From positions 1 to 64,000 of the forward strand of contig NZ_WOWP01000026.1 of assembly GCF_009741375.1 (NCBI RefSeq): DNA of 64,000 nucleotides, in the 5' to 3' direction. The DNA comes from Flavobacterium rakeshii. GTDB taxonomy: Bacteria > Bacteroidota > Bacteroidia > Flavobacteriales > Flavobacteriaceae. The translations under genes were made by a program, and so were the position numbers. The notes under the pieces are model-generated. The model was given only the letters and a program-made list of their open reading frames with translations, was not told where the DNA came from and searched no databases. Below are positions 2,834 through 58,974 of this stretch, piece after piece (the first letter of the stretch is position 1; each line of letters starts with the position of its first letter).

Positions 2834-4153
2834 ATGAGTATGGATGATTCCACTATAAATAATTTAAGGGAGGCCTTAAAATATTCACCCGATAATATCC
2901 CTTTAAAAATACATTTAGCCGAAAGCCTTTTGGCACTTAACCGTTTTGAAGAAGCCGAAAAGGAGTATAAAGAACTTTTAGGAATGCAGGACAATTCGGT
3001 AATACGTTTAGGGCTTGCTACAACCTATTACAGGCAAAAACAATATGCTACCTGTAGTGTTATACTTGAAGATTCATTAAGGTTATACCCAGACAACGTT
3101 AACCTACTTGTATTGTATGCCAAAACACTTTTAAAAGAAGACATGCATGCACAGGCAAGAGAAACCTATAAGCATGTACTGGAACTTGTGCCTGCTTTTA
3201 GAGACGAAGAACTTGATGCCGAACTGCGTGCAGGGAACATACAGATTACTGAAGATGAAATTGATGATGAGTCTGACTTTCATAAATTTTTAACTAAACC
3301 TACTATAAGCTTTAAGGATGTAGGAGGGATGGATAAAATAAAGAAGGAAATAGAACTTAAAATTATTCATCCGCTTAACCACGCCGATTTGTATAAGGCT
3401 TATGGTAAAAAAACAGGTGGAGGGATTTTGTTATATGGTCCTCCCGGATGTGGTAAAACCTATATAGCAAAGGCTACCGCCGGAGAAATTAAGGCTAATT
3501 TTATTAGTGTAGGGCTTAATGATATACTAGATATGTGGATTGGTAACAGTGAGAAAAATCTGCATGAAATTTTTGAAGTTGCCCGACAAAATAAACCCTG
3601 TGTGCTGTTTTTTGATGAAATTGATGCTCTTGGAGCCAGTAGGAGTGATATGAAAAACTCGGGCTCAAGGCACTTAATTAATCAGTTTTTACAGGAATTA
3701 GACGGTATAGAGTCTGATAACGACGGTATACTTGTACTTGGAGCTACAAATGCACCTTGGCACTTAGACCCGGCTTTTAGAAGACCGGGTAGGTTTGACA
3801 GAATAATTTTTATTCCGCCACCGGATGAGGAAGCAAGAGAATCTATTTTTGAAATTAAACTGAACGATAAGCCAAAAGAAAGTATTGATTATAAAAAACT
3901 GGCAAAATCAACTCCCGATTATTCGGGGGCAGACATTGAGGCGGTTATAGATATATCTATTGAAAGTAAACTGGAGGAGTCTTTTAAAACAGGAATCCCC
4001 GAACCTATTAAAGATAAGGATATAAGTAAGGCTATTAAAGTCCATAAAGCCAGTACTAAAGAGTGGTTTGTATCTGCCAGAAACTTTGCTTTATATGCTA
4101 ATGAATCAGGGCTGTATGATGATGTTTTATCTTACTTAAAAATTAAAAAATGA
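2834..4153 (+). CDS. TPR-AAA+ ATPase (CDC48/FtsH-type AAA domain)
   Basis: This 439-aa protein joins TPR-like helical repeats (about residues 5-130) to one classical AAA ATPase domain. It has Walker A GPPGCGKT (202-209), Walker B LFFDEID (258-264) and an arginine-finger region RRPGRFDR near 316, followed by the small helical lid. The AAA part resembles CDC48, FtsH or proteasomal ATPases, but there is no protease domain and no membrane anchor. TPRs probably recruit a client or partner. Its stop overlaps the start of the next gene (ATGA), so the two are translationally coupled and likely form one complex. The substrate is unknown; an unfoldase or remodelling role is inferred. Confidence 0.88.
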   Translation: MSMDDSTINNLREALKYSPDNIPLKIHLAESLLALNRFEEAEKEYKELLGMQDNSVIRLGLATTYYRQKQYATCSVILEDSLRLYPDNVNLLVLYAKTLLKEDMHAQARETYKHVLELVPAFRDEELDAELRAGNIQITEDEIDDESDFHKFLTKPTISFKDVGGMDKIKKEIELKIIHPLNHADLYKAYGKKTGGGILLYGPPGCGKTYIAKATAGEIKANFISVGLNDILDMWIGNSEKNLHEIFEVARQNKPCVLFFDEIDALGASRSDMKNSGSRHLINQFLQELDGIESDNDGILVLGATNAPWHLDPAFRRPGRFDRIIFIPPPDEEARESIFEIKLNDKPKESIDYKKLAKSTPDYSGADIEAVIDISIESKLEESFKTGIPEPIKDKDISKAIKVHKASTKEWFVSARNFALYANESGLYDDVLSYLKIKK

Positions 4154-5397
4154 TAACCGACGGTTTAATTCAAAAAGCAGCGCTATTATTACAGCAGGGA
4201 AGGTATAGTGAAGCAGAAAATATTTTAGGACAGTTACTTACTCAAAACCCTAACGATATTGATACACTTACGCTGTTAAGTGAAGCAAACTTTCAGCAAA
4301 AAAAATATGATAAGGCAGAAGAGTTAGTTAATAATGCTATTGCTTTAAGTCCTGATGAGAGTTCCCTTTTTTACCTAAAATCAAGGATTTATCTTTATAA
4401 AGATGAATACAAGGAAGCAGAGAAATATGCTAATACAGCTATAAGCTTACTCCCTGAAGATGAGAATAATTATGTTATTCTGTCAAATATATTATTGGCT
4501 CAAAAGAAATTTCAGGACGCACTTGATGCCGCCGACAGAGCTTTAAGTTTAGCTCCCGATAATGTATTTGCATTAAACATGAGGAGTACTGCCTTGCTAA
4601 AATTAAATAATAAAGATGAGTCTTTCAGAACTATTCAAGAGGCTTTACACGAAAATCCTAACAACGCGCACACACATGCAAATTACGGATGGGGATTGCT
4701 GGAAAAAGGAGATAAGAAAAAGGCATTAGAGCATTTTAGTGAAGCATTAAAAAATGATCCTGATAACAGTTTTGCTCAAGCCGGTATGGTTGAAGCACTT
4801 AAAGCAAGGTTTGTTTTTTACAGATTGTTTTTAAAGTATTCTTTCTGGATGTCAAACCTTACCTCTAAATACCAATGGGGTGTTATTTTAGGATTTTATT
4901 TTGGTACAAAATTTTTACAACGTGTAGCGGCAAACAACGAAACATTAAGACCATTCCTTATACCTATAATAGTACTATTGGCATTATTTGCTTTTTCTAC
5001 CTGGATAATAGGACCTGTAAGTAATTTATTTCTTCGTCTTAATTTTTATGGTAAGCACCTGCTTAGTAAGGAGGAAAAAATGTCGTCTTCACTTGTTGGT
5101 ATCTTTTTAGGAACATCAATATTAAGTGTTATAGGTTATTTTATAAGTAAAGATCAGGCTTTTTTAATACTCGCCATATTTACCTTTACCATGATGATTC
5201 CGGTTGGTAAAATATTCAATCAGCCCAGAAATATATTTTTTGGCTACAATATTATAATGTTCTTACTGGGAGGTTATGTTGTATTCCAAACTTTTGTAAA
5301 TCATATAGTACCAGATAATATAGCTATAATATACTTTTTCGGGTTTCTTGCTTTTCAGTTTCTTGGAAACTATTTTTCTATCAATCGTAAAAACTGA
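4150..5397 (+). CDS. TPR protein with C-terminal membrane domain
   Basis: The first 220 or so residues of this 415-aa protein are consecutive tetratricopeptide repeats with the usual Ala/Gly/Tyr spacing. The last 190 residues hold about six hydrophobic segments (near 240-258, 270-297, 312-331, 334-351, 362-382 and 391-409). The TPR array would then face the cytosol and the rest sit in the inner membrane. It overlaps the preceding TPR-AAA+ gene by 4 nt, which suggests that it docks that ATPase at the membrane. I know of no named family for the whole protein; the docking role is inference. Confidence 0.82.
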   Translation: MITDGLIQKAALLLQQGRYSEAENILGQLLTQNPNDIDTLTLLSEANFQQKKYDKAEELVNNAIALSPDESSLFYLKSRIYLYKDEYKEAEKYANTAISLLPEDENNYVILSNILLAQKKFQDALDAADRALSLAPDNVFALNMRSTALLKLNNKDESFRTIQEALHENPNNAHTHANYGWGLLEKGDKKKALEHFSEALKNDPDNSFAQAGMVEALKARFVFYRLFLKYSFWMSNLTSKYQWGVILGFYFGTKFLQRVAANNETLRPFLIPIIVLLALFAFSTWIIGPVSNLFLRLNFYGKHLLSKEEKMSSSLVGIFLGTSILSVIGYFISKDQAFLILAIFTFTMMIPVGKIFNQPRNIFFGYNIIMFLLGGYVVFQTFVNHIVPDNIAIIYFFGFLAFQFLGNYFSINRKN

Positions 5398-5843: not shown

Positions 5844-6449
5844 TTAAATCCCAAGTTTAGATTTAAGCTTTAAAAATACCAGAGCGGTAGTATATGCATT
5901 ACCGGATGCTGTTAACCTATCGCTCTTTTTTATTTTAAGGGCATCACACACTTCATCAAGACTTACCTGAGTATCTTGTACATGATGTTGCCATCTTTGA
6001 AAAAGAGCATTGGTATCCATAAACGTATTTTTAAGTCGGCCCAGTTCAAGTCTTTTTAATGCCTGATTAATCATTTCTAAATCAAGGTTGATGTTATGGC
6101 TAACTAGTGTGGCATCTTTTATAAAGTTTAGAAACTGAATAATAGCTTCGGCTTCTACAAACTTTTCATCATCATCTTTAATAACATCACTAAATGCTAC
6201 CGAGTGTGAATTGAATTTTTCCTGTTTTATAAAAATCTCGAAAAAGTCGCCAATCTCAATGGCATTATCATTTATACCAATAGCACCAATGGAAAGAATA
6301 ACATCGTCTTTCCAGTTTAGTCCGCTGGTTTCCATATCAAAAACTACATAACGTTTATGCACTTCATGATTATCATCCTTCTCAAAATGAGCAAGGTAGT
6401 TTTTCCAAAATTGAGGTAAATTAGTTCCTATCAGCCAGTCTAATGCCAT
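5844..6449 (-). CDS. 3'-5' exonuclease, DnaQ/epsilon-like
   Basis: A DEDD-type exonuclease of 201 aa. The first motif, VFDMETSGLNWKDD, supplies Asp and Glu. The second acidic motif is in SHNINLDLEMIN, and the last, towards the C-terminus, reads RLTASGNAYTTALVFL where DnaQ has HxxxxD; the terminal His/Asp of canonical epsilon is not evident in this stretch. It is not the polymerase-associated epsilon by length or context. It begins 6 nt after the CNB-CBS-DUF294 gene ends, so the pair is co-transcribed. The same partnership is known in many bacteria. Its nucleic-acid substrate is unknown. Confidence 0.85.
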   Translation of the reverse strand: MALDWLIGTNLPQFWKNYLAHFEKDDNHEVHKRYVVFDMETSGLNWKDDVILSIGAIGINDNAIEIGDFFEIFIKQEKFNSHSVAFSDVIKDDDEKFVEAEAIIQFLNFIKDATLVSHNINLDLEMINQALKRLELGRLKNTFMDTNALFQRWQHHVQDTQVSLDEVCDALKIKKSDRLTASGNAYTTALVFLKLKSKLGI

Positions 6450-6455
6450 ATTATA

Positions 6456-8375
6456 TTAGTTGATATATGTAAGAGAAAAACGGTTTTTTAAAAGATCATG
6501 TATTTCATTTATAGGCTGAAAACAGTTTTTAAGTTTAAGCCTGTCAGATTTTGATAACTCTTTTAGGTTAAGGTATCTACCGTCAGAATTACTTATTAAT
6601 CCTTCTTCCGTCCTAAAACGCATTAATACATTAAAAGCATCGGCACAATTAGTATATAGTTCCTCATTTTCGGGTTCAAGTTCAGCCAGTTTTTTAAAAC
6701 GCTGGTATGTACCGGTAAAATCTACAAGGTTATGACTAAGAGCTAATACTCTGGCCGCATCGCCAAGAGGTTCTAAAGCTCTGTTTTTAATATCAAAAGT
6801 ATCCTTGTGTTCACCGTCATTCTCTACCAAAAACTGCCTAAAAAAGCCCAATGGGGCCGGATTTTTTAATGCATCAGCCGCAAGATAAGCAAAAAACTTT
6901 TTATTCTGTTGTATGCTTTTCTCAATATTATCTGTAATAACCTGTTCTATTTCAGGAGTTCCGTATAAAAAGTCCATATCAAAAAACAGCGTACTTAACT
7001 GAACCGTTTTCTCTTCGGGAGAGTTAATCCATATATTATATTGTTTAATCCAGTCGGTTACTGATTTACACCATTTAGGATTATTGGCCATAACATCATC
7101 GGGAGACATTTCATAACCTACATTATTAAGCATTCGTACAACCTTATCGGCAAGAACAAGAAAATAACTCTTAACCGTTTCATATTCATTAGAATCTATG
7201 TCTTCAAAAATAAGAGCGTTATCCTGATCTGTTAGTAACAACTGCTCTTTACGTCCCTGGCTACCTATGTTTAACCAAACAAAACGGGCAGGAGCAGGGA
7301 CTCCCATTTCTTCAATAGCAAGTTCAATAGCTCTTCTGGTAATTGCAATATTTATTTCGGCTACTATATTAGTTATATGAGATACCGGTATGTTTTTATC
7401 TATTGAATTCTGTATCAGCTCAGTCATCCTGTCACGAACAACTTTTAGCTCTTTGGCATCAAAAGCACGACGGGTTTGTTTTAATAACATGCCCGGAGTA
7501 TTGGCCTGTGCAGCAACTACATCATGTTCTGATATAATACCTGTTACCTGAGATTTGTCTGTACCGTCTTTTGTAACACATAAATGACCAACATTATACT
7601 TGAGCATAAGCATTTGAGCTTCGGCTACAGAAATATTTTCAGGTACAGTTATAACGGGAGCTGTCATTATCTTATCGGCTGTAATTGTTATAGGGAAAAG
7701 TCCTGTAGCTATTTTAGAGCGTAAATCTCTATCGGTCACTATACCTATAGGTAATTGGTCTTTTTGTATAATAACACTACCTATAGAGCTGGTAGACATA
7801 GTTTTAGCTATATACATAACAACATCATCCAGATTAGCTGTTATTGGGTTTTTAGTATATTTTATAGGCTGAAAATATTGTATATCTGTAGTATGTTCAG
7901 CAAATATCATGTTTTCCGAAATCAGTTTTCCGCTATGTTCCTTATCATAAGGATTACGTGTATGAGAAGCAAAACTTTGAAGAAGAAACTTTAAAACCTC
8001 CTTGTTTTCTGTTATATAAGGCTCAAATACTGCTATAGGTACAGAGCATATAATTGAGTCTTCACGCGCTTTTGCCGTCATTAAGTAATGATTTTTAGCA
8101 AAAAACGGTCTTAATCCCAATATATCGCCTTCGTCGCATTTATCCACTAAAGTTTCTTCAGCGTCTGAGGTTAATGATAAACCAACAGCACCACTCTTAA
8201 CTACATAAAAATTTTCATGTGTTTCCTCACCACCTTTAAATAGTATCTGATTCTTTTCGAGATAAATTATTTTAGATAGATTAGCTATACTAAACAATTC
8301 CTCAAAAGTCATACTACTGAAAGGGGGGAAGTGCTTTAAAAATTTAGCAACATTCTCAGCAACAGGATTTTTCAT
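6456..8375 (-). CDS. Cyclic nucleotide-binding/CBS/DUF294 nucleotidyltransferase-like protein
   Basis: A 639-aa cytosolic regulatory protein. Residues 10-125 form a cyclic nucleotide-binding beta-barrel. Two CBS repeats follow (about 172-290, with GIVTDRD and GIISEHD motifs). A DUF294 nucleotidyltransferase-like domain carries NIGSQGRKEQ and DQDNA near residues 367-385, and a DUF294 C-terminal helical domain ends the chain. The GS...D-x-D pattern is that of GlnD-like nucleotidyltransferases, so catalysis is possible. The domain order matches a known signal-integration family with unknown targets. It is followed at 6 nt by an exonuclease, which is probably its partner. Confidence 0.9.
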   Translation of the reverse strand: MKNPVAENVAKFLKHFPPFSSMTFEELFSIANLSKIIYLEKNQILFKGGEETHENFYVVKSGAVGLSLTSDAEETLVDKCDEGDILGLRPFFAKNHYLMTAKAREDSIICSVPIAVFEPYITENKEVLKFLLQSFASHTRNPYDKEHSGKLISENMIFAEHTTDIQYFQPIKYTKNPITANLDDVVMYIAKTMSTSSIGSVIIQKDQLPIGIVTDRDLRSKIATGLFPITITADKIMTAPVITVPENISVAEAQMLMLKYNVGHLCVTKDGTDKSQVTGIISEHDVVAAQANTPGMLLKQTRRAFDAKELKVVRDRMTELIQNSIDKNIPVSHITNIVAEINIAITRRAIELAIEEMGVPAPARFVWLNIGSQGRKEQLLLTDQDNALIFEDIDSNEYETVKSYFLVLADKVVRMLNNVGYEMSPDDVMANNPKWCKSVTDWIKQYNIWINSPEEKTVQLSTLFFDMDFLYGTPEIEQVITDNIEKSIQQNKKFFAYLAADALKNPAPLGFFRQFLVENDGEHKDTFDIKNRALEPLGDAARVLALSHNLVDFTGTYQRFKKLAELEPENEELYTNCADAFNVLMRFRTEEGLISNSDGRYLNLKELSKSDRLKLKNCFQPINEIHDLLKNRFSLTYIN

Positions 8376-8550
8376 AAAAAGGCGATTTAGTAACTAAAAA
8401 TACTACTTTTTAACATTCGTTGCAAAGAAATTACAATCTTATAAATCAATTGTTTGTTAAAAAAATACGCAAAAAGCTTAAAATAAAGTGAAAATAAAAT
8501 TCATCATTTAATTAATGTTATTAAATTTACAGGATTAACTTTCAAAACTA

Positions 8551-9063
8551 GTGAACATGAAAATTTCTAAAAAAATTGCAACCGTATTGTTTACTGTATT
8601 TTTTACAGTTTTAGCCAGTGCTCAGGATAAAAAACCATTAAGTCCGGCAGCATCAGCATACGGAAAAATAAATGAGGCTAACATCAATATTATTTACAGT
8701 AGCCCGTCTGTAAAAGGAAGAGAAATATGGGGCGGACTTGTTCCTTACGGTCAAGTATGGAGAGCAGGTGCAAATGCTCCAACAGTATTTGCTGTTGACA
8801 GAGAAGTTACAGTAGAAGGAAAAAAACTTCCTGCAGGTAAATATTCTTTTTACATAATTCCTGAAGAAGGAAACTTCACAATCATTTTTGGTAAAGACAG
8901 AAGCATGGCTGCTTCAAAATATGATTCTTCACAAGATCAGCTTCGTGTAACAGTTAAGCCTAAAAAGAAAACAAACCTAACTGAAAGCTTAGAGTACAGC
9001 GTTAACAGTAACAATGTAACTTTAACTTGGGAGTATCTTGAAATTCCAATCAGTGTAAAATAA
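8551..9063 (+). CDS. DUF2911 domain protein, exported
   Basis: A 170-aa protein with an N-terminal signal peptide (MNMKISKKI, then a hydrophobic run ending VLASAQ) followed by a DUF2911 domain. Family features include the conserved GRxIWGGLVPYGQVWRAGAN block near residues 55-75 and the later LPAGKYSFYIIP stretch. The family is common in Bacteroidetes and has no known activity. ATG alternatives exist at residues 1 and 3 (MNMK) with little effect. The gene stands alone with a strong terminator 20 nt after its stop. Confidence 0.88.
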   Translation: MNMKISKKIATVLFTVFFTVLASAQDKKPLSPAASAYGKINEANINIIYSSPSVKGREIWGGLVPYGQVWRAGANAPTVFAVDREVTVEGKKLPAGKYSFYIIPEEGNFTIIFGKDRSMAASKYDSSQDQLRVTVKPKKKTNLTESLEYSVNSNNVTLTWEYLEIPISVK

Positions 9064-17170: not shown

Positions 17171-18016
17171 ATGACCACATTAAAAATAGCAGGTGTACCG
17201 GAACACTTTAATCTACCCTGGCATTTATGTATCCAGAATAACGAATTCGCTAATCACAGTATTGATTTACAATGGACTGACGTACCCGAAGGTACCGGAA
17301 AGCTATGCCAGATGCTTCGCAATGGTGAAACTGATATTGCCGTTATTTTAACGGAAGGTATTATTAAGGATATTGCTGCCGGGAACGACTCTAAAATTGT
17401 TCAGGTATATGTAGATTCTCCGCTTATATGGGGAATACACGTAGCTGTAGATTCTGCTTATCAAAACATTAACGATATTAAACAGGGTAAGGTAGCCATA
17501 AGCCGTTATGGATCGGGTTCTCATTTAATGGCTTTTGTAAATGCCGAAAATCAGGGATGGGACACCTCAAAACTTGATTTTGAAATCGTAAATACCATAG
17601 ATGGCGCTGTAGATGCATTGACCCATGGAAAAGCCGATTACTTTATGTGGGAACGATTTATGACAAAACCTTTGGTAGATAACGGTATATTTAGGCGTGT
17701 GGGCGACTGCCCTACTCCATGGCCTTGTTTTGTAATAGCCATAAGAAATGAGGTGTTACAAAATACCCCTAATGCTATAGGTACGATTCTTGAGGTAATC
17801 AATAATAAAACTGCTAGCTTTAAGGAAATTGAAAACATCGATACTGTTTTAGCCGATAAATACAACCAGAAAGTTGAAGACATAAGAGAGTGGTTAAAAC
17901 TAACCGAATGGTCACAAACGAAACTGGATAAAACTACGTTTGATAAAGTACAGGATCAGTTAGTACGCCTGAATATTATTGAGAACAAAACATCGTTTGA
18001 AGCAGTAACCGGATAA
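17171..18016 (+). CDS. Periplasmic-binding-protein-like fold, no signal peptide
   Basis: This 281-aa protein has the layout of a type 2 solute-binding protein (two lobes, with GETDIAVILTEG, GKVAISRYGSGSHLMAF and DALTHGKADYFMWER). It resembles NMT1/THI5-type binding domains. It starts directly with the fold and has no signal peptide or lipobox, and no ABC permease or ATPase gene is nearby, so it is probably a cytosolic ligand-binding protein or an enzyme derived from one. The transglutaminase gene follows at 26 nt. Ligand unknown. Confidence 0.75.
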   Translation: MTTLKIAGVPEHFNLPWHLCIQNNEFANHSIDLQWTDVPEGTGKLCQMLRNGETDIAVILTEGIIKDIAAGNDSKIVQVYVDSPLIWGIHVAVDSAYQNINDIKQGKVAISRYGSGSHLMAFVNAENQGWDTSKLDFEIVNTIDGAVDALTHGKADYFMWERFMTKPLVDNGIFRRVGDCPTPWPCFVIAIRNEVLQNTPNAIGTILEVINNKTASFKEIENIDTVLADKYNQKVEDIREWLKLTEWSQTKLDKTTFDKVQDQLVRLNIIENKTSFEAVTG

Positions 18017-53685: not shown

Positions 53686-54309
53686 CTATATTTCCTTAAT
53701 CAGATAAGTACATCTGTCACCTCCACTTACAATATGTTGTTTTCTTTCAACAGAAAACTTTTCTCCAAATAACTGTTGGAAATTTTTTAATTCTGATTTA
53801 CAAAAACCCTGACATTGAGTGGCAGCAGCACAAATAGGACAATGATTCTCAATTAGCAAATAATCTTTACCCTCTTTCTTCCATTCTGCCATATACCCTT
53901 CCTCTGTTCTTTTTTTAACTACAACAGAAAGTTTTTCCTCTATAGAGTTTGTTTTTTGGGTAGCCTTTTCATATTTACTGTAAACATTAGCCTCCCTATC
54001 GTTTATTAATAAATCGAGAGCATTTTCACCAAGCAGCTTTTTTATAGACTGTAATAACTGTACTGTGATTTCGGCATGAGTATCAGGGAAATTAGACAAT
54101 CCCTTATCTGTTAATGAATAATAAGTAGAAGGTCGCCCTACTCCTTCACTCACAGCAGTAGATTTAATTAAGTTATCACCAGCAAGATTAACAAGGTGTT
54201 TCCTTGCTCCTTCTTTAGTAATACTCAATTCTTCTGCAATGCTTTGTGCCGTTACCTGCCCACGCATCTTTAATAACATCAATATTTTATCTGACGGAGT
54301 CTTTTTCAT
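53686..54309 (-). CDS. SufR-like iron-sulfur transcriptional regulator
   Basis: A 207-aa regulator. Residues 5-70 form a winged HTH (VTAQSIAEELSITKEGARKHLVNL, then GRPSTYYSLTDKG in the wing). The C-terminal domain has Cys157, Cys160, Cys166 and Cys170 (NHCPICAAATQCQGFC) and Cys200 near the end (GGDRCTYLI), the layout of SufR-type Fe-S sensors. It is divergent from sodA. A CAAC-N6-GTTG palindrome lies over the sod promoter and a near-copy in front of this gene, so it probably represses both when its cluster is intact. Not proven to be SufR itself. Confidence 0.85.
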   Translation of the reverse strand: MKKTPSDKILMLLKMRGQVTAQSIAEELSITKEGARKHLVNLAGDNLIKSTAVSEGVGRPSTYYSLTDKGLSNFPDTHAEITVQLLQSIKKLLGENALDLLINDREANVYSKYEKATQKTNSIEEKLSVVVKKRTEEGYMAEWKKEGKDYLLIENHCPICAAATQCQGFCKSELKNFQQLFGEKFSVERKQHIVSGGDRCTYLIKEI

Positions 54310-54313
54310 TTAG

Positions 54314-54326
54314 CAACAAAAAGTTG
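54314..54326 (-). promoter_or_regulatory. Putative autoregulatory SufR-type operator
   Basis: CAAC (54314-54317) and GTTG (54323-54326) with a 5-nt spacer lie 4 nt upstream of the regulator's ATG. Read on the minus strand it contains AAAACAACTTTTT, the same 13 bases found in the sod operator. It sits downstream of the regulator's -7 box. Confidence 0.55.
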
Positions 54327-54344
54327 TTTTATATATATAAACTA

Positions 54345-54352
54345 CAAATATA
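54345..54352 (-). promoter_or_regulatory. -7 box of the SufR-like regulator gene
   Basis: CAAATATA reads TATATTTG on the minus strand, an exact TAnnTTTG, 35 nt upstream of the ATG at 54309. Confidence 0.5.
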
Positions 54353-54429
54353 CAAAATCATTATTAACTTCTATATTATGTAGATATAGTCATTAACATG
54401 AAAGTTACGGAATAAAATAATTAAAAAAT

Positions 54430-54475
54430 AAAACAACTTTTTAGTTGTTTTATTAAAATCAATCTTATAATTTTG
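54430..54475 (+). promoter_or_regulatory. sodA promoter with overlapping CAAC-N6-GTTG operator
   Basis: Half-sites AAAACAACT (54430-54438) and AGTTGTTTT (54443-54451) form a perfect 22-bp palindrome with a TTTT centre. Inside it CAAC-N6-GTTG (54434-54447) equals the operator form known for cyanobacterial SufR. The GTTG also supplies the TTG -33 element (54445-54447) of a promoter whose -7 box TAATTTTG is at 54468-54475, 20 nt on. A bound repressor would block polymerase directly. Confidence 0.75.
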
Positions 54476-54502: not shown

Positions 54503-55117
54503 ATGAATAAATTTGAATTACCTACATTACCATATGCATATAATGCTTTAGAGCCTCATTTTGATGAAGAGACAATGACAATTCACCATCAACGTCACCA
54601 TCAGGCATATGTGGACAATCTTAACAAGGCAATAGAAACAAACCAAAGACTGGAGCAAATAATGCCACAGGTAAGTAAGCTGAGTCCGGCAATACGCAAT
54701 AACGGAGGCGGACATTATAATCACTCATTATTTTGGAAAATATTATCTCCGTCAGCTAAAACAGAACCAACAGGAAAACTGGCAGATGAAATCAATTCAA
54801 CTTTTGGCAGTCTTGACAAACTTAAAGAAGAAATAAATAAAGCTGGGGTAACCCAATTTGGATCTGGCTGGGCATGGTTATATGTAAAGTATAACGGCAC
54901 AATAGCTATTACTGCTACTGCAAATCAGGATAATCCTTTAATGGATACACAATTAACCGACAGAGGCCTACCAATACTGGGGGTTGATGTTTGGGAGCAC
55001 GCCTATTACCTTAAATACAGAAACAAAAGAGCTGATTATCTTGATGCATTTTGGTCTGTATTAGATTGGGAAGCTGTTGAAAGAAACTACGAAGAAGCTC
55101 TTGCTAAAATTAAATAA
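54503..55117 (+). CDS. sodA: Superoxide dismutase, Fe/Mn family
   Basis: A 204-aa enzyme that converts superoxide to H2O2 and O2. The four metal ligands sit in [21 protein letters not shown], and Asp and His of [11 protein letters not shown]. The [11 protein letters not shown] block is Mn-like, although metal choice (Mn, Fe or cambialistic) cannot be read with certainty. I start it at the ATG at 54503 ([13 protein letters not shown]), not the TTG at 54473, which lies in the -7 box. It is the first gene of the redox series. Confidence 0.95.
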
Positions 55118-55155: not shown

Positions 55156-55659
55156 ATGACAAAAAATATTTTTATCAATAAAGTAGAGGCATCGGGTATT
55201 ATAGCCCTGGACCTGATTGATTACAAACCCTCCATAATCGTAACTGAGTTTGATATAAAGAATTTGCTTTATATGAACTTAATAGTAAAAGAAAAGGAAT
55301 TCAGGGCTTTACTTTCTCAAATGGACCTTACTCACTATCAGGGTAAAGCTATTGCCTTTATATGTTCTGTTGATGCTATTATTCCTCAATGGGTTTATAT
55401 GTCGTTAGCAGAAAAGTTTGATGGGGTAGCTACTTATATCGACTTTAAGGACAAAGAGTCAATCATTGTTGATTTATGGAAAGAAAATCTCAGTAAGACA
55501 GATCTTTCCTCATATAACAATCAAAAAGTTGTTGTAAGAGCCCGGGAGGAAGTACCACCAGCTTTATACATGGCTGCCGCTTCTTTATTAAAACCTATTG
55601 TTAAAACCCTAATGTATGGTGAAATAGGTATGCCTAAAGTAATTTACAAACAACAATAA
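55156..55659 (+). CDS. DUF2480 family protein
   Basis: A 167-aa cytosolic protein. Its blocks IIALDLIDYKP, EFDIKNLLYMNLIVKEKEFR, YQGKAIAFICSVDAIIPQW and the C-terminal KTLMYGEIGMPKVIYK match, from memory, the DUF2480 family found in Bacteroidetes next to Fe-S assembly (suf) genes. That link fits the Fe-S theme here. It lies 38 nt after sodA. No catalytic motif is visible. Function unknown. Confidence 0.82.
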   Translation: MTKNIFINKVEASGIIALDLIDYKPSIIVTEFDIKNLLYMNLIVKEKEFRALLSQMDLTHYQGKAIAFICSVDAIIPQWVYMSLAEKFDGVATYIDFKDKESIIVDLWKENLSKTDLSSYNNQKVVVRAREEVPPALYMAAASLLKPIVKTLMYGEIGMPKVIYKQQ

Positions 55660-55686: not shown

Positions 55687-56262
55687 ATGAAAGCACTTAT
55701 ATTTAACGGAGCTCTGGAAAGGAGATCACAATCAACGTCGGGTACAATTTCCTTATATCTTGAAGAAAAACTAAAAGAATATGGTATAGAAAGCACTGTA
55801 TTTAATCTTGATGAAAGTGGGATACCCTTGTTTGATATCACTTTAACACGAACTCCTAAAGGAGCTGAGATAATGAACAGCCTTTTTAGAGAGGCCGATA
55901 TACATTTTTGGCTAGCTCCTTTATATCACGGTAGTATACCGGGTGTAATGAAAAACTGTATTGACTGGCTGGAAATTAGCTCAAAAAGTAATCCTCCATA
56001 CTTGACAGATAAAACCATAGGCTTAATATGTTGGGCCGATGGTGTACAGGCGATGCAGGGAATAAATACCATGGATGCAATCGCTAAATCATTACGTGCA
56101 TGGCCGCTTCCGTTTAATGTTCCCATAACCCGAAATTTACTTTTTACCGAAGGTAATTCATATCAAATATCACAAACCTATAAAAATAAACTGGATCTTT
56201 TGGTTCAAATTGCAGCTACTAAAACGGTAGCCTCAAATCCGTTGGTTAACAAGCTATCGTGA
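55687..56262 (+). CDS. NADPH-dependent FMN reductase family protein
   Basis: A 191-aa flavodoxin-fold protein. The FMN loop is near residues 9-20 (NGALERRSQSTSGT), with the phosphate-ring motif LAPLYHGSIPGVMKNCIDWLE near 77-97. The family reduces flavins, quinones or azo dyes with NAD(P)H. Its place between DUF2480 and Usp genes, in one direction and with short gaps, makes it part of the sod series; FMNH2 could serve Fe release or repair (inference). Confidence 0.9.
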   Translation: MKALIFNGALERRSQSTSGTISLYLEEKLKEYGIESTVFNLDESGIPLFDITLTRTPKGAEIMNSLFREADIHFWLAPLYHGSIPGVMKNCIDWLEISSKSNPPYLTDKTIGLICWADGVQAMQGINTMDAIAKSLRAWPLPFNVPITRNLLFTEGNSYQISQTYKNKLDLLVQIAATKTVASNPLVNKLS

Positions 56263-56313: not shown

Positions 56314-57132
56314 ATGACCATAGTTGCCTGTACTGATTTTTCTGAAATTGCAGAAAATTCGGTTAATTACGCAGGGATAATAGCCAAAATTACCGGCAGT
56401 AAACTTATCCTATACCATTCGTACACCCTACCCCTACATGTCTCTAATACTATTTTACCCGTTACATCATTCGAAAAGCTTATAAATAACACCTATCACA
56501 AATTAGAAAAAAGGGCTCAGTCACTTAGTAAGCTACATGATATAGAAGTTGTGGCAGAATGTTCTTTCTCAGGTTTTGAGGACCAGTTGGCCTTTTTAAT
56601 AAAAAAATATCGTGCTACGTTACTGGTAATGGGAATGGCTCGTAAAAGTCTTGAACAGGACTTATTAGGCAACACCACCTCGTCAGTAATAAAAAATATA
56701 AAGATACCTGTATTTGCTGTACCCGGAGGAGTTGAATTTAACGAAGTAAAAAAAATACTTTTTGCCTGTGATACACCTCTTCTTGTTCCTCCTTCAATTT
56801 TAAAACGCATTAAAAAAACAGCTCAGAATTTAGGTGCCGAGGTGGAGATTTTAAGCATCGAAGAAGAACTTAACGAGCTGGAAGCTAATACTACCCCTAA
56901 TGAATCGTTCAATAATACCGACACCTATCTGGAAGGTATTAATTACTATTATAAAAATGTTCGCTCCAATACTGTAATTGAAACCATAAAAAAAGAAATA
57001 CAAAACATACAGGCAGATATATTAATAATGATGCCCAGGCAATATGGTTTTTGGGAAGCGTTAGTACATCGTAGCAAAACCCGAGTGATGGCTTCAGGCC
57101 TGTCAATACCTCTTTTATCCCTACCCGTATAA
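56314..57132 (+). CDS. Universal stress protein, tandem Usp domains
   Basis: A 272-aa protein with two UspA domains. Domain 1 (about 1-142) has VACTDFSE at the N-terminus and an ATP-binding-like LLVMGMARKSLEQDLLGNTTSSVIKN stretch. Domain 2 (about 150-272) begins KKILFACDTP and keeps the less conserved DILIMMPRQYGFWEALVHRSKT end. Tandem UspA proteins of this length are common in Bacteroidetes and respond to oxygen or starvation. It fits a stress operon. Confidence 0.9.
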   Translation: MTIVACTDFSEIAENSVNYAGIIAKITGSKLILYHSYTLPLHVSNTILPVTSFEKLINNTYHKLEKRAQSLSKLHDIEVVAECSFSGFEDQLAFLIKKYRATLLVMGMARKSLEQDLLGNTTSSVIKNIKIPVFAVPGGVEFNEVKKILFACDTPLLVPPSILKRIKKTAQNLGAEVEILSIEEELNELEANTTPNESFNNTDTYLEGINYYYKNVRSNTVIETIKKEIQNIQADILIMMPRQYGFWEALVHRSKTRVMASGLSIPLLSLPV

Positions 57133-57175: not shown

Positions 57176-58228
57176 ATGATTGAAACAGATATTTTAATTA
57201 TTGGCGCAGGGCCAGCAGGACTTTTTACTGTGTTTGAGGCCGGACTTCTTAAAATGCGCTGTCATATTATAGACGCTCTCCCACAAATAGGCGGACAGTT
57301 ATCAGAATTATACCCCAAAAAACCAATATTCGATATACCTGGCTTCCCAAGTGTTTTAGCTGGTGGGCTAATTGATAATCTATATGAACAAATCAAGCAG
57401 TTTAAACCTGGATTTACTCTTAACGAGTATGCTATAAACCTTACTAAGATTGAAGAGAATCTTTTTGAAGTCACCACAAACAAAGGTACTGTTCATAGAG
57501 CAAAAGCAATAGTTATTGCCGGTGGTTTAGGAAGTTTTGAACCTAAAAAACCTTTAATTGACGAAATAAGTAGTTTTGAAGAAAAAGGTGTAAACTATTT
57601 TGTAAAAAATCCTGAAGATTACACCGGTAAAAATGTTGTAATCGCCGGAGGTGGAGATTCGGCTCTGGACTGGGCAATACATTTGTCTGAAATAACATCA
57701 TCACTTACACTTATACACAGAAGGAATGAGTTTCGTGGTGCTCTTGACTCAGTAGAAAAAGTAAGGTTATTAAAGCAAAAAGGGAAAATAAACCTTATAA
57801 CTCCTGCCGAAGTAACACAGTTACATGGAAATGAAACTCTTGAAGCAGTTTCAGTAGAACATGAAGGAGAAACAAAAACCATAAAAACAGACTATTTTAT
57901 ACCTCTGTTTGGCTTAGTGCCAAGGTTAGGACCAATAGCTAACTGGGGACTTGAAATAGAGCGCAATGCAGTAAAAGTAGATAATTCGACTGATTATAGT
58001 ACTAATATCCCGGGCATATATGCTGTAGGTGATATTAATACTTATCCACACAAAATGAAGCTTATTTTATGTGGTTTCCATGAAGCTGCAATGGCATGCC
58101 AAAGTATTTATCAGCGTTTAAACCCCAATAAAAAATTTGTATTAAAATACACAACCGTAAGTGGTATTGATGGTTTTGACGGAACCCGAAAAGAAGCCGA
58201 AAAACAAGTAGTAGCCAGTATTGATTAA
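57176..58228 (+). CDS. Ferredoxin--NADP+ reductase, thioredoxin-reductase type
   Basis: A 350-aa FAD/NADPH enzyme. FAD motif IIGAGPAGLFTVFE (near 7-20), then GGQLSELYPKKPIFDIPGFP, the hallmark of type 2 FNR (YumC class), and the NADPH site VVIAGGGDSALDWAIHL near 157. The second FAD motif GIYAVGDINTYP follows. It lacks the CxxC of thioredoxin reductase. Two ferredoxin genes follow it immediately (12 and 24 nt gaps), strong support for an NADPH-to-ferredoxin chain. Confidence 0.93.
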   Translation: MIETDILIIGAGPAGLFTVFEAGLLKMRCHIIDALPQIGGQLSELYPKKPIFDIPGFPSVLAGGLIDNLYEQIKQFKPGFTLNEYAINLTKIEENLFEVTTNKGTVHRAKAIVIAGGLGSFEPKKPLIDEISSFEEKGVNYFVKNPEDYTGKNVVIAGGGDSALDWAIHLSEITSSLTLIHRRNEFRGALDSVEKVRLLKQKGKINLITPAEVTQLHGNETLEAVSVEHEGETKTIKTDYFIPLFGLVPRLGPIANWGLEIERNAVKVDNSTDYSTNIPGIYAVGDINTYPHKMKLILCGFHEAAMACQSIYQRLNPNKKFVLKYTTVSGIDGFDGTRKEAEKQVVASID

Positions 58229-58240
58229 TTATTTTGACTG

Positions 58241-58564
58241 ATGAAAAATGAAATCATAATCACTGTTAAGGATTTAAAAGGCAAACATCATATACTGCAC
58301 TGCCCTACTGATATGGGATTTACGCTAAAAGACATGTGTGTTGCCTATGAACTGCCTATGGAAGCTGTTTGCGGAGGTATGGCAATGTGTGCTACCTGTC
58401 ATTGTTATATACTTAATGATATAATAGGAATACCTCAAAAGAATGATGCCGAAACAGCATTACTATCTGAAGTAATGACTACTACTGCAAACAGTAGACT
58501 AGCTTGCCAAATTCCGTTAACAAATGAGATGAACGGGCTTTATATTGAAATAGCGAGTGAGTAA
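58241..58564 (+). CDS. 2Fe-2S ferredoxin
   Basis: A 107-aa plant/adrenodoxin-type ferredoxin. Cluster ligands are in VCGGMAMCATCHC (Cys spacing C-x5-C-x2-C, with an extra Cys two residues later) and the last ligand in LACQIPL near residue 88. Acidic surface and size fit an adrenodoxin-like electron carrier. It follows the FNR gene by 12 nt and is probably reduced by it. Confidence 0.93.
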   Translation: MKNEIIITVKDLKGKHHILHCPTDMGFTLKDMCVAYELPMEAVCGGMAMCATCHCYILNDIIGIPQKNDAETALLSEVMTTTANSRLACQIPLTNEMNGLYIEIASE

Positions 58565-58588: not shown

Positions 58589-58939
58589 ATGGCTATAAAA
58601 ATAACTGATGACTGTATAAATTGTGGAGCATGTGAACCAGAATGTCCTAACACAGCGATTTATGAGGGAGCTGACGACTGGCGCTATAAAGATGGTACTA
58701 CATTAAAAGGAAAAACTACATTACAGGATGGTGTAACTATAGATGCAGAAAGTTTTCAGGAAGCACTATCTGACGATATTTATTATATAGTACCCGGTAA
58801 ATGTACCGAATGTAAAGGTTTTCATGATGAACCGCAATGTCAGCTGGTATGTCCGGTAGACTGTTGTGTGGATGATCCGGAACATAGAGAAAGTGAAGAA
58901 ACACTTCGTGATAGACAGGCTTTTCTTCACAAAGAATAA
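58589..58939 (+). CDS. 2[4Fe-4S] ferredoxin
   Basis: A 116-aa ferredoxin of the YfhL type. The first cluster site is [12 protein letters not shown] (residues 9-20, CxxCxxCxxxCP). The second is CTECKGF...[10 protein letters not shown] near 72-94, with an insertion between the second and third Cys, which is typical of that group. About 35 polar residues separate the sites. It is the last gene of the sod series, before a bidirectional terminator. Being rich in Fe-S, it would be sensitive to superoxide, which the first gene removes. Confidence 0.93.
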
Positions 58940-58974
58940 AATAAAAAACAAGTGGCAACCTAAGGGTTGCCACT
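58940..58974. terminator. Bidirectional terminator
   Basis: AGTGGCAACC (58951-58960) pairs with GGTTGCCACT (58965-58974). The T tract is best on the minus strand, which ends the hydrolase transcript; it also closes the ferredoxin gene. Confidence 0.85.

Follow-up and report, generated by a model that had tools for sequence, protein, structure and literature searches.

A SufR-type regulator, likely mobile, faces a superoxide dismutase operon in Flavobacterium rakeshii and may work like SoxR for a one-operon superoxide response

The stretch of DNA analyzed here (the window, 64,000 nucleotides of a Flavobacterium rakeshii contig) contains a regulator gene and a superoxide dismutase gene, sod, in divergent orientation. 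The regulator (53686-54309, minus strand) is predicted to be a SufR-like winged-helix protein of 207 amino acids, with a lysine at position 37 and five cysteines (C157, C160, C166, C170, and C200) in its C-terminal domain, and is present as one copy in the host genome. The sod gene (54503-55117, plus strand) was assigned to the Fe/Mn family by profile match; its residues NNGGGHYNH...NQD presumably mark a Mn-type enzyme, and no signal peptide was apparent by eye. The downstream genes of the predicted operon, all on the plus strand, encode a DUF2480 protein (55156-55659), an NADPH-dependent FMN reductase-like protein (55687-56262), a universal stress protein identified by profile match (56314-57132), a thioredoxin-reductase-like flavoprotein with a Pyr_redox_2 match that is predicted to function as a ferredoxin-NADP reductase (57176-58228), a 2Fe-2S ferredoxin (58241-58564), and a YfhL-type 4Fe-4S ferredoxin above the NF033683 cut-off (58589-58939), which would be the last gene of the run. 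The host has three Fe/Mn SODs, among which L134 looks cytosolic and L135 carries a lipoprotein-like N-terminus, as judged by eye; all three show the G and Q residues typical of the Mn type.

Named genomes were scanned with words taken from the regulator sequence, and 70 loci with a relative were obtained, mostly from Chryseobacterium and Sphingobacterium, with neighbourhoods of up to 12.6 kb, some of them ended by contig ends. Within these neighbourhoods, SOD was present in 59 of the 70 loci, divergent from the regulator, and the DUF2480 gene, the conserved second gene of the predicted operon, was likewise found in 59, the FMN reductase in 60, the YfhL-type ferredoxin in 39, the 2Fe-2S ferredoxin in 24, and the flavoprotein in 20. 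In none of the 70 was a gene for the universal stress protein, the AraC-type protein, or Fe-ADH found. A DUF2480 gene divergent from the regulator and unaccompanied by sod was seen in L070 and L168; a search of the open literature found no paper on DUF2480.

Analysis of the intergenic region revealed two palindromic sites. Site 1, the predicted main operator (54427-54454), reads AATAAAACAACT-TTTT-AGTTGTTTTATT, 28 bp with perfect 12-nt arms around a 4-nt centre, and encloses the core CAACTTTTTAGTTG of the form CAAC-N6-GTTG at 54434-54447; the original prediction had recognized this palindrome and understated its length as 22 bp. The TTG of the right arm (54445-54447) is followed 20 nt later by TAATTTTG (54468-54475), and this TTG-N20-TAnnTTTG arrangement upstream of sod (54445-54475, plus strand) fits the Bacteroidota-type promoter consensus. 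Site 1 and the predicted -33 box of sod therefore overlap, as had been proposed. Site 2 (ATAAAACAAC-N5-GTTGCTAA, 54310-54332, minus strand) abuts the regulator start and is a predicted autoregulatory operator; its core CAACAAAAAGTTG (CAAC-N5-GTTG) was found where it had been described, at 54314-54326, leaving a gap of 4 nt to the regulator ATG. Sites 1 and 2 have 15 consecutive bases in common, in inverted orientation, rather than the 13 previously counted.

The bare CAAC-N6-GTTG motif was discarded as a genome-wide regulon marker, with 54 places in the 3.9-Mb host genome against 65 for the reversed control. Three copies lie in the window, site 1 among them; the copy at 17863 was rejected as an operator on account of its position within a coding region, and that at 58956 on account of its position in a hairpin stem between convergent genes. 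The latter stretch, CAACCTAAGGGTTG (58951-58974), caps a more extended hairpin (AGTGGCAACC...GGTTGCCACT) that probably serves as a bidirectional terminator rather than as an operator. The extended motif AAAACAAC-N6-GTTGTTTT occurred a single time in the host genome, at sod, and no further host site at one mismatch was among the matches listed; with up to three mismatches, 136 host sites were obtained against 115 in the control, so that no further host targets can be named from this motif. The sufB/sufD-type genes of the host are located on another contig (C52:18840-22107) with no bare motif near them, the places at 5105 and 51060 of that contig being approximately 13.7 and 29 kb off.

The best family match of the regulator was TIGR02702 (SufR), with an E-value of 2.9e-32 and 112.1 bits, below the cut-off of 178.8 bits, which was exceeded in none of 296 Bacteroidota genomes. 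Pfam matches were TFIIE_alpha, HTH_11, and HTH_DeoR, and neither a MerR nor an Rrf2-family match was found in Pfam or NCBIfam. The structure model had a mean pLDDT of 86 and a pTM of 0.60. The C-terminal cysteines form a signature, HCPIC-x5-CQGFC, that is the subfamily's own. C157, C170, and C200 were invariant across all groups compared: the window and the 70 named loci (71 rows), plasmids (nine rows), additional subfamily members (nine rows), a sister clade (17 rows), and L146, an actinobacterial SufR. C160 was found in 70/71, 9/9, and 8/9 of the named and window, plasmid, and further subfamily rows, respectively, and C166 in 71/71, 8/9, and 9/9; both were missing from the 17 sister-clade rows and from L146, and therefore mark the subfamily. 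For SufR itself, the comparison was confined to the TIGR02702 profile and to two sequences from Actinobacteria. As judged from these matches, the regulator is a SufR relative within a distinct subfamily below the SufR cut-off: the expected kinship was borne out, at a score under the equivalog cut-off and with a signature of its own, and the five cysteines announced as SufR-like are all there, three of them at SufR positions.

The spacing of the three invariant cysteines, C157-x12-C170-x29-C200, has a last gap two residues longer than the x27 of Mycobacterium tuberculosis (Mtb) SufR, which requires C203, C216, and C244 (x12, x27) according to the accessible portion of that study (PMC6034842). 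In Corynebacterium glutamicum SufR, residues 171, 175, 188, and 216 are the presumed ligands in the text available to us (PMC11995493), and the window regulator has no counterpart at the place of C171; in this it is unlike the C. glutamicum protein, whose presumed fourth ligand sits elsewhere. The ligand sets given for cyanobacterial SufR differ between the available sections of two reviews (PMC8593673, PMC13421787). From the cysteines alone, we infer an iron-sulfur sensor step. It is quite improbable that they form instead a zinc site or a thiol switch with no Fe-S cluster, which would make the protein a thiol- or metal-responsive repressor of the same operator. Relatives named in the accessible literature are ArsR/SmtB, DeoR or MarR. 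Searches of the PDB by profile and by fold hit chiefly the DNA-binding portion, with the zinc-responsive ZitR/AdcR as best Foldseek matches over about 110 columns and no SufR entry among the PDB profile matches, so that the fold comparison favours neither reading; C157, C170, and C200, however, stand at the positions that SufR keeps. Foldseek also returned weak matches of the C-terminal domain model to TRAPP Bet3-type chains (E 1.6e-3); these hint at a possible V4R/Bet3-like domain in SufR relatives.

A quick tree of 65 rows, with the actinobacterial SufR proteins L146 and L159 (next to sufB) as outgroup, clustered the window regulator with sod-linked Sphingobacterium rows (SH-aLRT 93), within a wider set of 11 rows around it (SH-aLRT 98), two of which are MFS-linked. 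Within the genus of the host, a full-length regulator was found in 2 of the 23 genomes listed, together with one fragment. This sparse occurrence suggests that the regulator-sod module was likely acquired by the host, and the place of the regulator beside Sphingobacterium in the tree agrees with this.

Conservation of the palindrome before orthologous sod genes that adjoin the regulator, on which the original prediction had been staked, was observed in most loci and is the principal argument against a chance occurrence. CAAC-N6-GTTG was kept in 53 of 60 sod-divergent intergenic regions (59 named loci and the window), whereas dinucleotide shuffles gave 0.1 on average; the 59 loci come mostly from Chryseobacterium and Sphingobacterium and are therefore not independent. 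All Dyadobacter, Maribellus, Prolixibacter, and Algoriphagus loci contained the motif, and among relatives the N6 spacer varied while the arms were constant. The exact motif was missing in seven regions (L060, L067, L069, L073, L078, L081, and L084), of which L060 and L084 had a near form and L078 and L081 had CAAG-N6-CTTG at the regulator start. A looser site corresponding to site 2, ACAA[CG]-N5/6-[ACG]TTG within 45 nt of the regulator start, was present in 52 of the 60 loci against 0.13 in shuffles. The promoter element TAnnTTTG followed 17-20 nt past the right arm in 56 of 65 loci with a CAA[CG]-N6-[CG]TTG site (71 examined), with a chance of 0.011 per site by letter shuffles.

The operator letters and the regulator also varied together. 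In seven Sphingobacterium loci (L070, L071, L075, L076, L077, L079, and L080) both arms were altered together to CAAG-N6-CTTG. Residue 37, a lysine in the window regulator, lies in the recognition helix (helix 32-44 in the structure model). Among 115 rows, scanned with C or G alone permitted at the variable letter and with low scores for some plasmid rows, 57 had Lys37, and 56 of these had CAAC in both arms, the remaining one (L060) having no site. Gln37 was found in 26 rows, with CAAG in both arms in 19, G/C in two, C/G in one, CAAC in one, and no site in three; mixed arms or CAAC were seen with Gln37 in L084, L083, and L168, the last being a same-genus relative with ACAAG-N6-GTTGT. The identity of residue 37, K or Q, thus appears to track the CAAC or CAAG letter of the operator, in a match that reflects one event, since K37 arose once on the tree; a statistical test of residue 37 against the operator had one independent pair and was not significant.

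These data also bear on whether the palindrome is bound by another regulator, with the SufR-like gene adjacent incidentally. An AraC-type gene does lie next door in the window, but no such gene was found in the 70 loci, the palindrome accompanies the SufR-like gene into loci devoid of sod (L070, L083, and L026), and the arm letter tracks residue 37 of the SufR-like protein in most rows, which leaves this explanation very improbable.

The picture was sparser in an unbiased sample of 395 genomes from the phylum: 30 matched the regulator at 1e-15, and 11, including that of the window, had full-length matches at 1e-45 or better. Comparison of the near surroundings of 10 full-length matches besides that of the window showed SOD divergent in five (L103, L105, L106, L109, and L110), SufA-SufB by L107, and DUF2480 by L168; the queried partner genes were not found within roughly 1.5 kb around L102, L104, and L111. 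Three of the sod-divergent members (L103, L105, and L106) are of a distant family with Phe37 and have no CAAC or CAAG palindrome. The association of the palindrome with sod-facing regulators does not extend to them, and the described operator is therefore a feature of those subfamily members that are closer to the window regulator, which slightly lowers the odds of the reading set out below.

The expectation of a flavobacterial SufR-like repressor directed to sod rather than to suf is supported by the SufR relationship, the host suf genes with no site nearby, and most loci, but needs refinement. Members were found in Bacteroidota, Proteobacteria, and two cyanobacterial genera, so that the subfamily is not flavobacterial alone, and a few of them stand with suf genes. 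The regulator of L083 (a Ferruginibacter MAG, 5977-9050) is accompanied by an FMN reductase, a SufA-type gene, and a SufB gene; that of L107, from the same class as the host of the window, is divergent from SufA- and SufB-type genes; and that of L082 follows an aminotransferase-V gene, read as a cysteine desulfurase. All three fall within the subfamily, although the branches concerned are only modestly supported and that of L083 is long, and carry a site at the regulator start, CAAC-N6-GTTG in L083 and CAAG-N6-CTTG in L107 and L082. The positions of L083 and L107 beside suf genes suggest that some Bacteroidota may use the subfamily for suf.

Plasmids yielded 36 matching records, 18 of which were opened. 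SOD adjoined the regulator in seven of them (L137, L138, L141, L144, L155, L156, and L161), and the same subfamily faces sod on alphaproteobacterial plasmids, with the gene order sod-fdxA-flavin reductase-FNR-DoxX in Salipiger abyssi and sod-fdxA-flavin reductase-DoxX in Sulfitobacter. Other plasmid regulators were located by MFS genes (L143 and L157), by efflux genes (L140), or 1.3 kb from an MFS gene (L142 and L162), and L146 and L159 are plasmid suf-linked SufR. The seven sod-linked plasmid loci have a candidate site at the start codon and a second one 35-39 nt upstream, one arm of which is often imperfect; conservation of the site at the start codon may in part be due to coding constraint.

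The plasmid neighbourhoods raise the alternative that the same repressor and operator sense nitric oxide or iron starvation, with the cluster nitrosylated or unbuilt and the operon serving iron sparing or NO defence. In Salipiger abyssi and Sulfitobacter, the regulator gene precedes one for a truncated haemoglobin, a sister SufR-like clade occurs near ScdA/hemerythrin-type and globin genes, and Mtb SufR is responsive to NO according to the title of one reference. Globin and ScdA-type queries, however, were unmatched near the regulator in 23 named loci (L064-L086), and the genes conserved alongside the regulator encode SOD, flavin reductase, and ferredoxins, with a transporter and a nitroreductase in a few loci; we regard this alternative as unlikely. 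The sister clade itself (L112-L128 from the phylum sample, for example L112, L113, L119, L120, L122, and L126) has the pattern NCP...LPC...C, and its frequent position near the ScdA/hemerythrin-type or globin genes is compatible with a possible NO-response relative of SufR.

Searches with AAACAAC-N6-GTTGTTT in 30 relative genomes gave matches in 20, with 25 sites against six in the reversed control; 16 were the regulator-sod site, three were an MFS site, and the six left equal the control level. The MFS gene (PF07690) beside a nitroreductase gene (PF00881) was found in three of 30 Chryseobacterium genomes searched, with the palindrome directly upstream of the MFS gene in all three and TAnnTTTG 18-20 nt behind the TTG. 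A copy of the regulator adjoins the MFS site in two of them (L026 and L031/L153); control of the site in C. paridis (L061/L150) would need the regulator beside sod to act from a distant locus. Of nine exact non-sod sites in relatives, eight were fetched and the ninth (G300) lies within L026. L150 and L153 are the MFS/nitroreductase site, L147, L149, L151, and L152 were rejected as lying inside a long open reading frame, and L148 was rejected as having no clear target.

We consider it likely, with a probability of roughly two in three, that the regulator is a SufR-type repressor that binds CAAC-N6-GTTG at the sod -33 box and releases it upon damage to an Fe-S cluster by superoxide or redox-cycling compounds. 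The repressor would bind as a homodimer, with recognition helices one DNA turn apart, covering the -33 box and thereby blocking RNA polymerase, while binding at site 2 would provide autoregulation. The DNA-binding form would carry a predicted [4Fe-4S] cluster held by C157, C170, C200, and probably C166, and loss or oxidation of the cluster by superoxide or redox-cycling compounds would release the repressor and open the operon. Its products (the Mn-type SOD, DUF2480 protein, flavin reductase, reductase, and two ferredoxins) would then clear superoxide and replenish the reducing power that damaged Fe-S enzymes need.

In the available sections of two reviews, oxidised holo-SufR is described as binding CAAC-N6-GTTG and losing affinity upon reduction, and iron limitation and oxidative stress as raising suf expression (PMC13421787, PMC8593673); in the latter review, SufR is confined to the suf genes and, taxonomically, to Cyanobacteria and part of the Actinobacteria (PMC8593673). 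As far as these sources extend, the window system resembles that of cyanobacterial SufR (Synechocystis sll0088) in the winged-helix N-terminus, the cysteine-rich C-terminus, the operator, and the combination of a site at the target with a second one at its own gene, weaker in SufR and, by sequence, of the N5 form here. It is unlike cyanobacterial SufR, which targets sufBCDS, in facing sod and in having the additional C160 and C166. With actinobacterial SufR it shares the Cys-x12-Cys spacing reported for Mtb Rv1460, the positions of C157, C170, and C200 in L146, and the operator CAAC-N6-GTTG described for Streptomyces avermitilis SufR in the portion available; it is unlike L146 and L159, which lie by sufB, and L146 is devoid of C160 and C166.

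SoxR/SoxRS of Escherichia coli and other bacteria controls genes for SOD, ferredoxin reductase, flavin and nitro reductases, and transporters through a single Fe-S switch; SoxR itself belongs to the MerR family and carries a [2Fe-2S] cluster. The predicted role and the operon content of the window system are akin to the SoxRS regulon; unlike SoxR, the regulator gave no MerR match and is a predicted repressor that may be ArsR/DeoR-like. IscR, of the Rrf2 family, also reads Fe-S cluster status at promoters, including those of oxidative-stress genes, as is predicted here, but the window regulator has no Rrf2 match. In these terms, the regulator is likely a SufR-type repressor with a SoxR-like role in a superoxide response limited to one operon, and is itself likely mobile. 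A wider proposal, for which the chances appear nearly balanced, is that a widespread, frequently plasmid-borne second SufR-type lineage (HCPIC-x5-CQGFC) took the SoxR role in Bacteroidota and Proteobacteria, controlling a single operon for SOD, flavin reductase, ferredoxin reductase, ferredoxins, and in some hosts a transporter and a nitroreductase, with K37 or Q37 setting CAAC or CAAG.

Among the matches listed from the open literature (titles and abstract openings), there was no report of a SufR-like sod regulator in these bacteria. In the loci analyzed here, a SufR-related subfamily faces sod in Bacteroidota and Proteobacteria, and the same operator form occurs in Bacteroidota. If the proposed regulation is true, it would offer a testable answer to SOD induction in such bacteria, it would mean that a common stress programme was reached convergently by two unrelated protein families, and the K37/Q37 switch would provide a simple handle on operator specificity.

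Two minor observations concern single genomes. In the E. coli record NZ_CP116116.1 (H26), a partial match to the regulator lies over an IS30-type transposase annotation, and this copy therefore appears interrupted. In Sphingobacterium mizutaii (L154, site at 3061), an exact AAACAAC-N6-GTTGTTT occurs about 280 nt before a DoxX gene; it was set aside as a target, given that the regulator of this host has Q37 with CAAG sites, and it may be due to chance. A DoxX gene also ends the sod operons of the Salipiger and Sulfitobacter plasmids.
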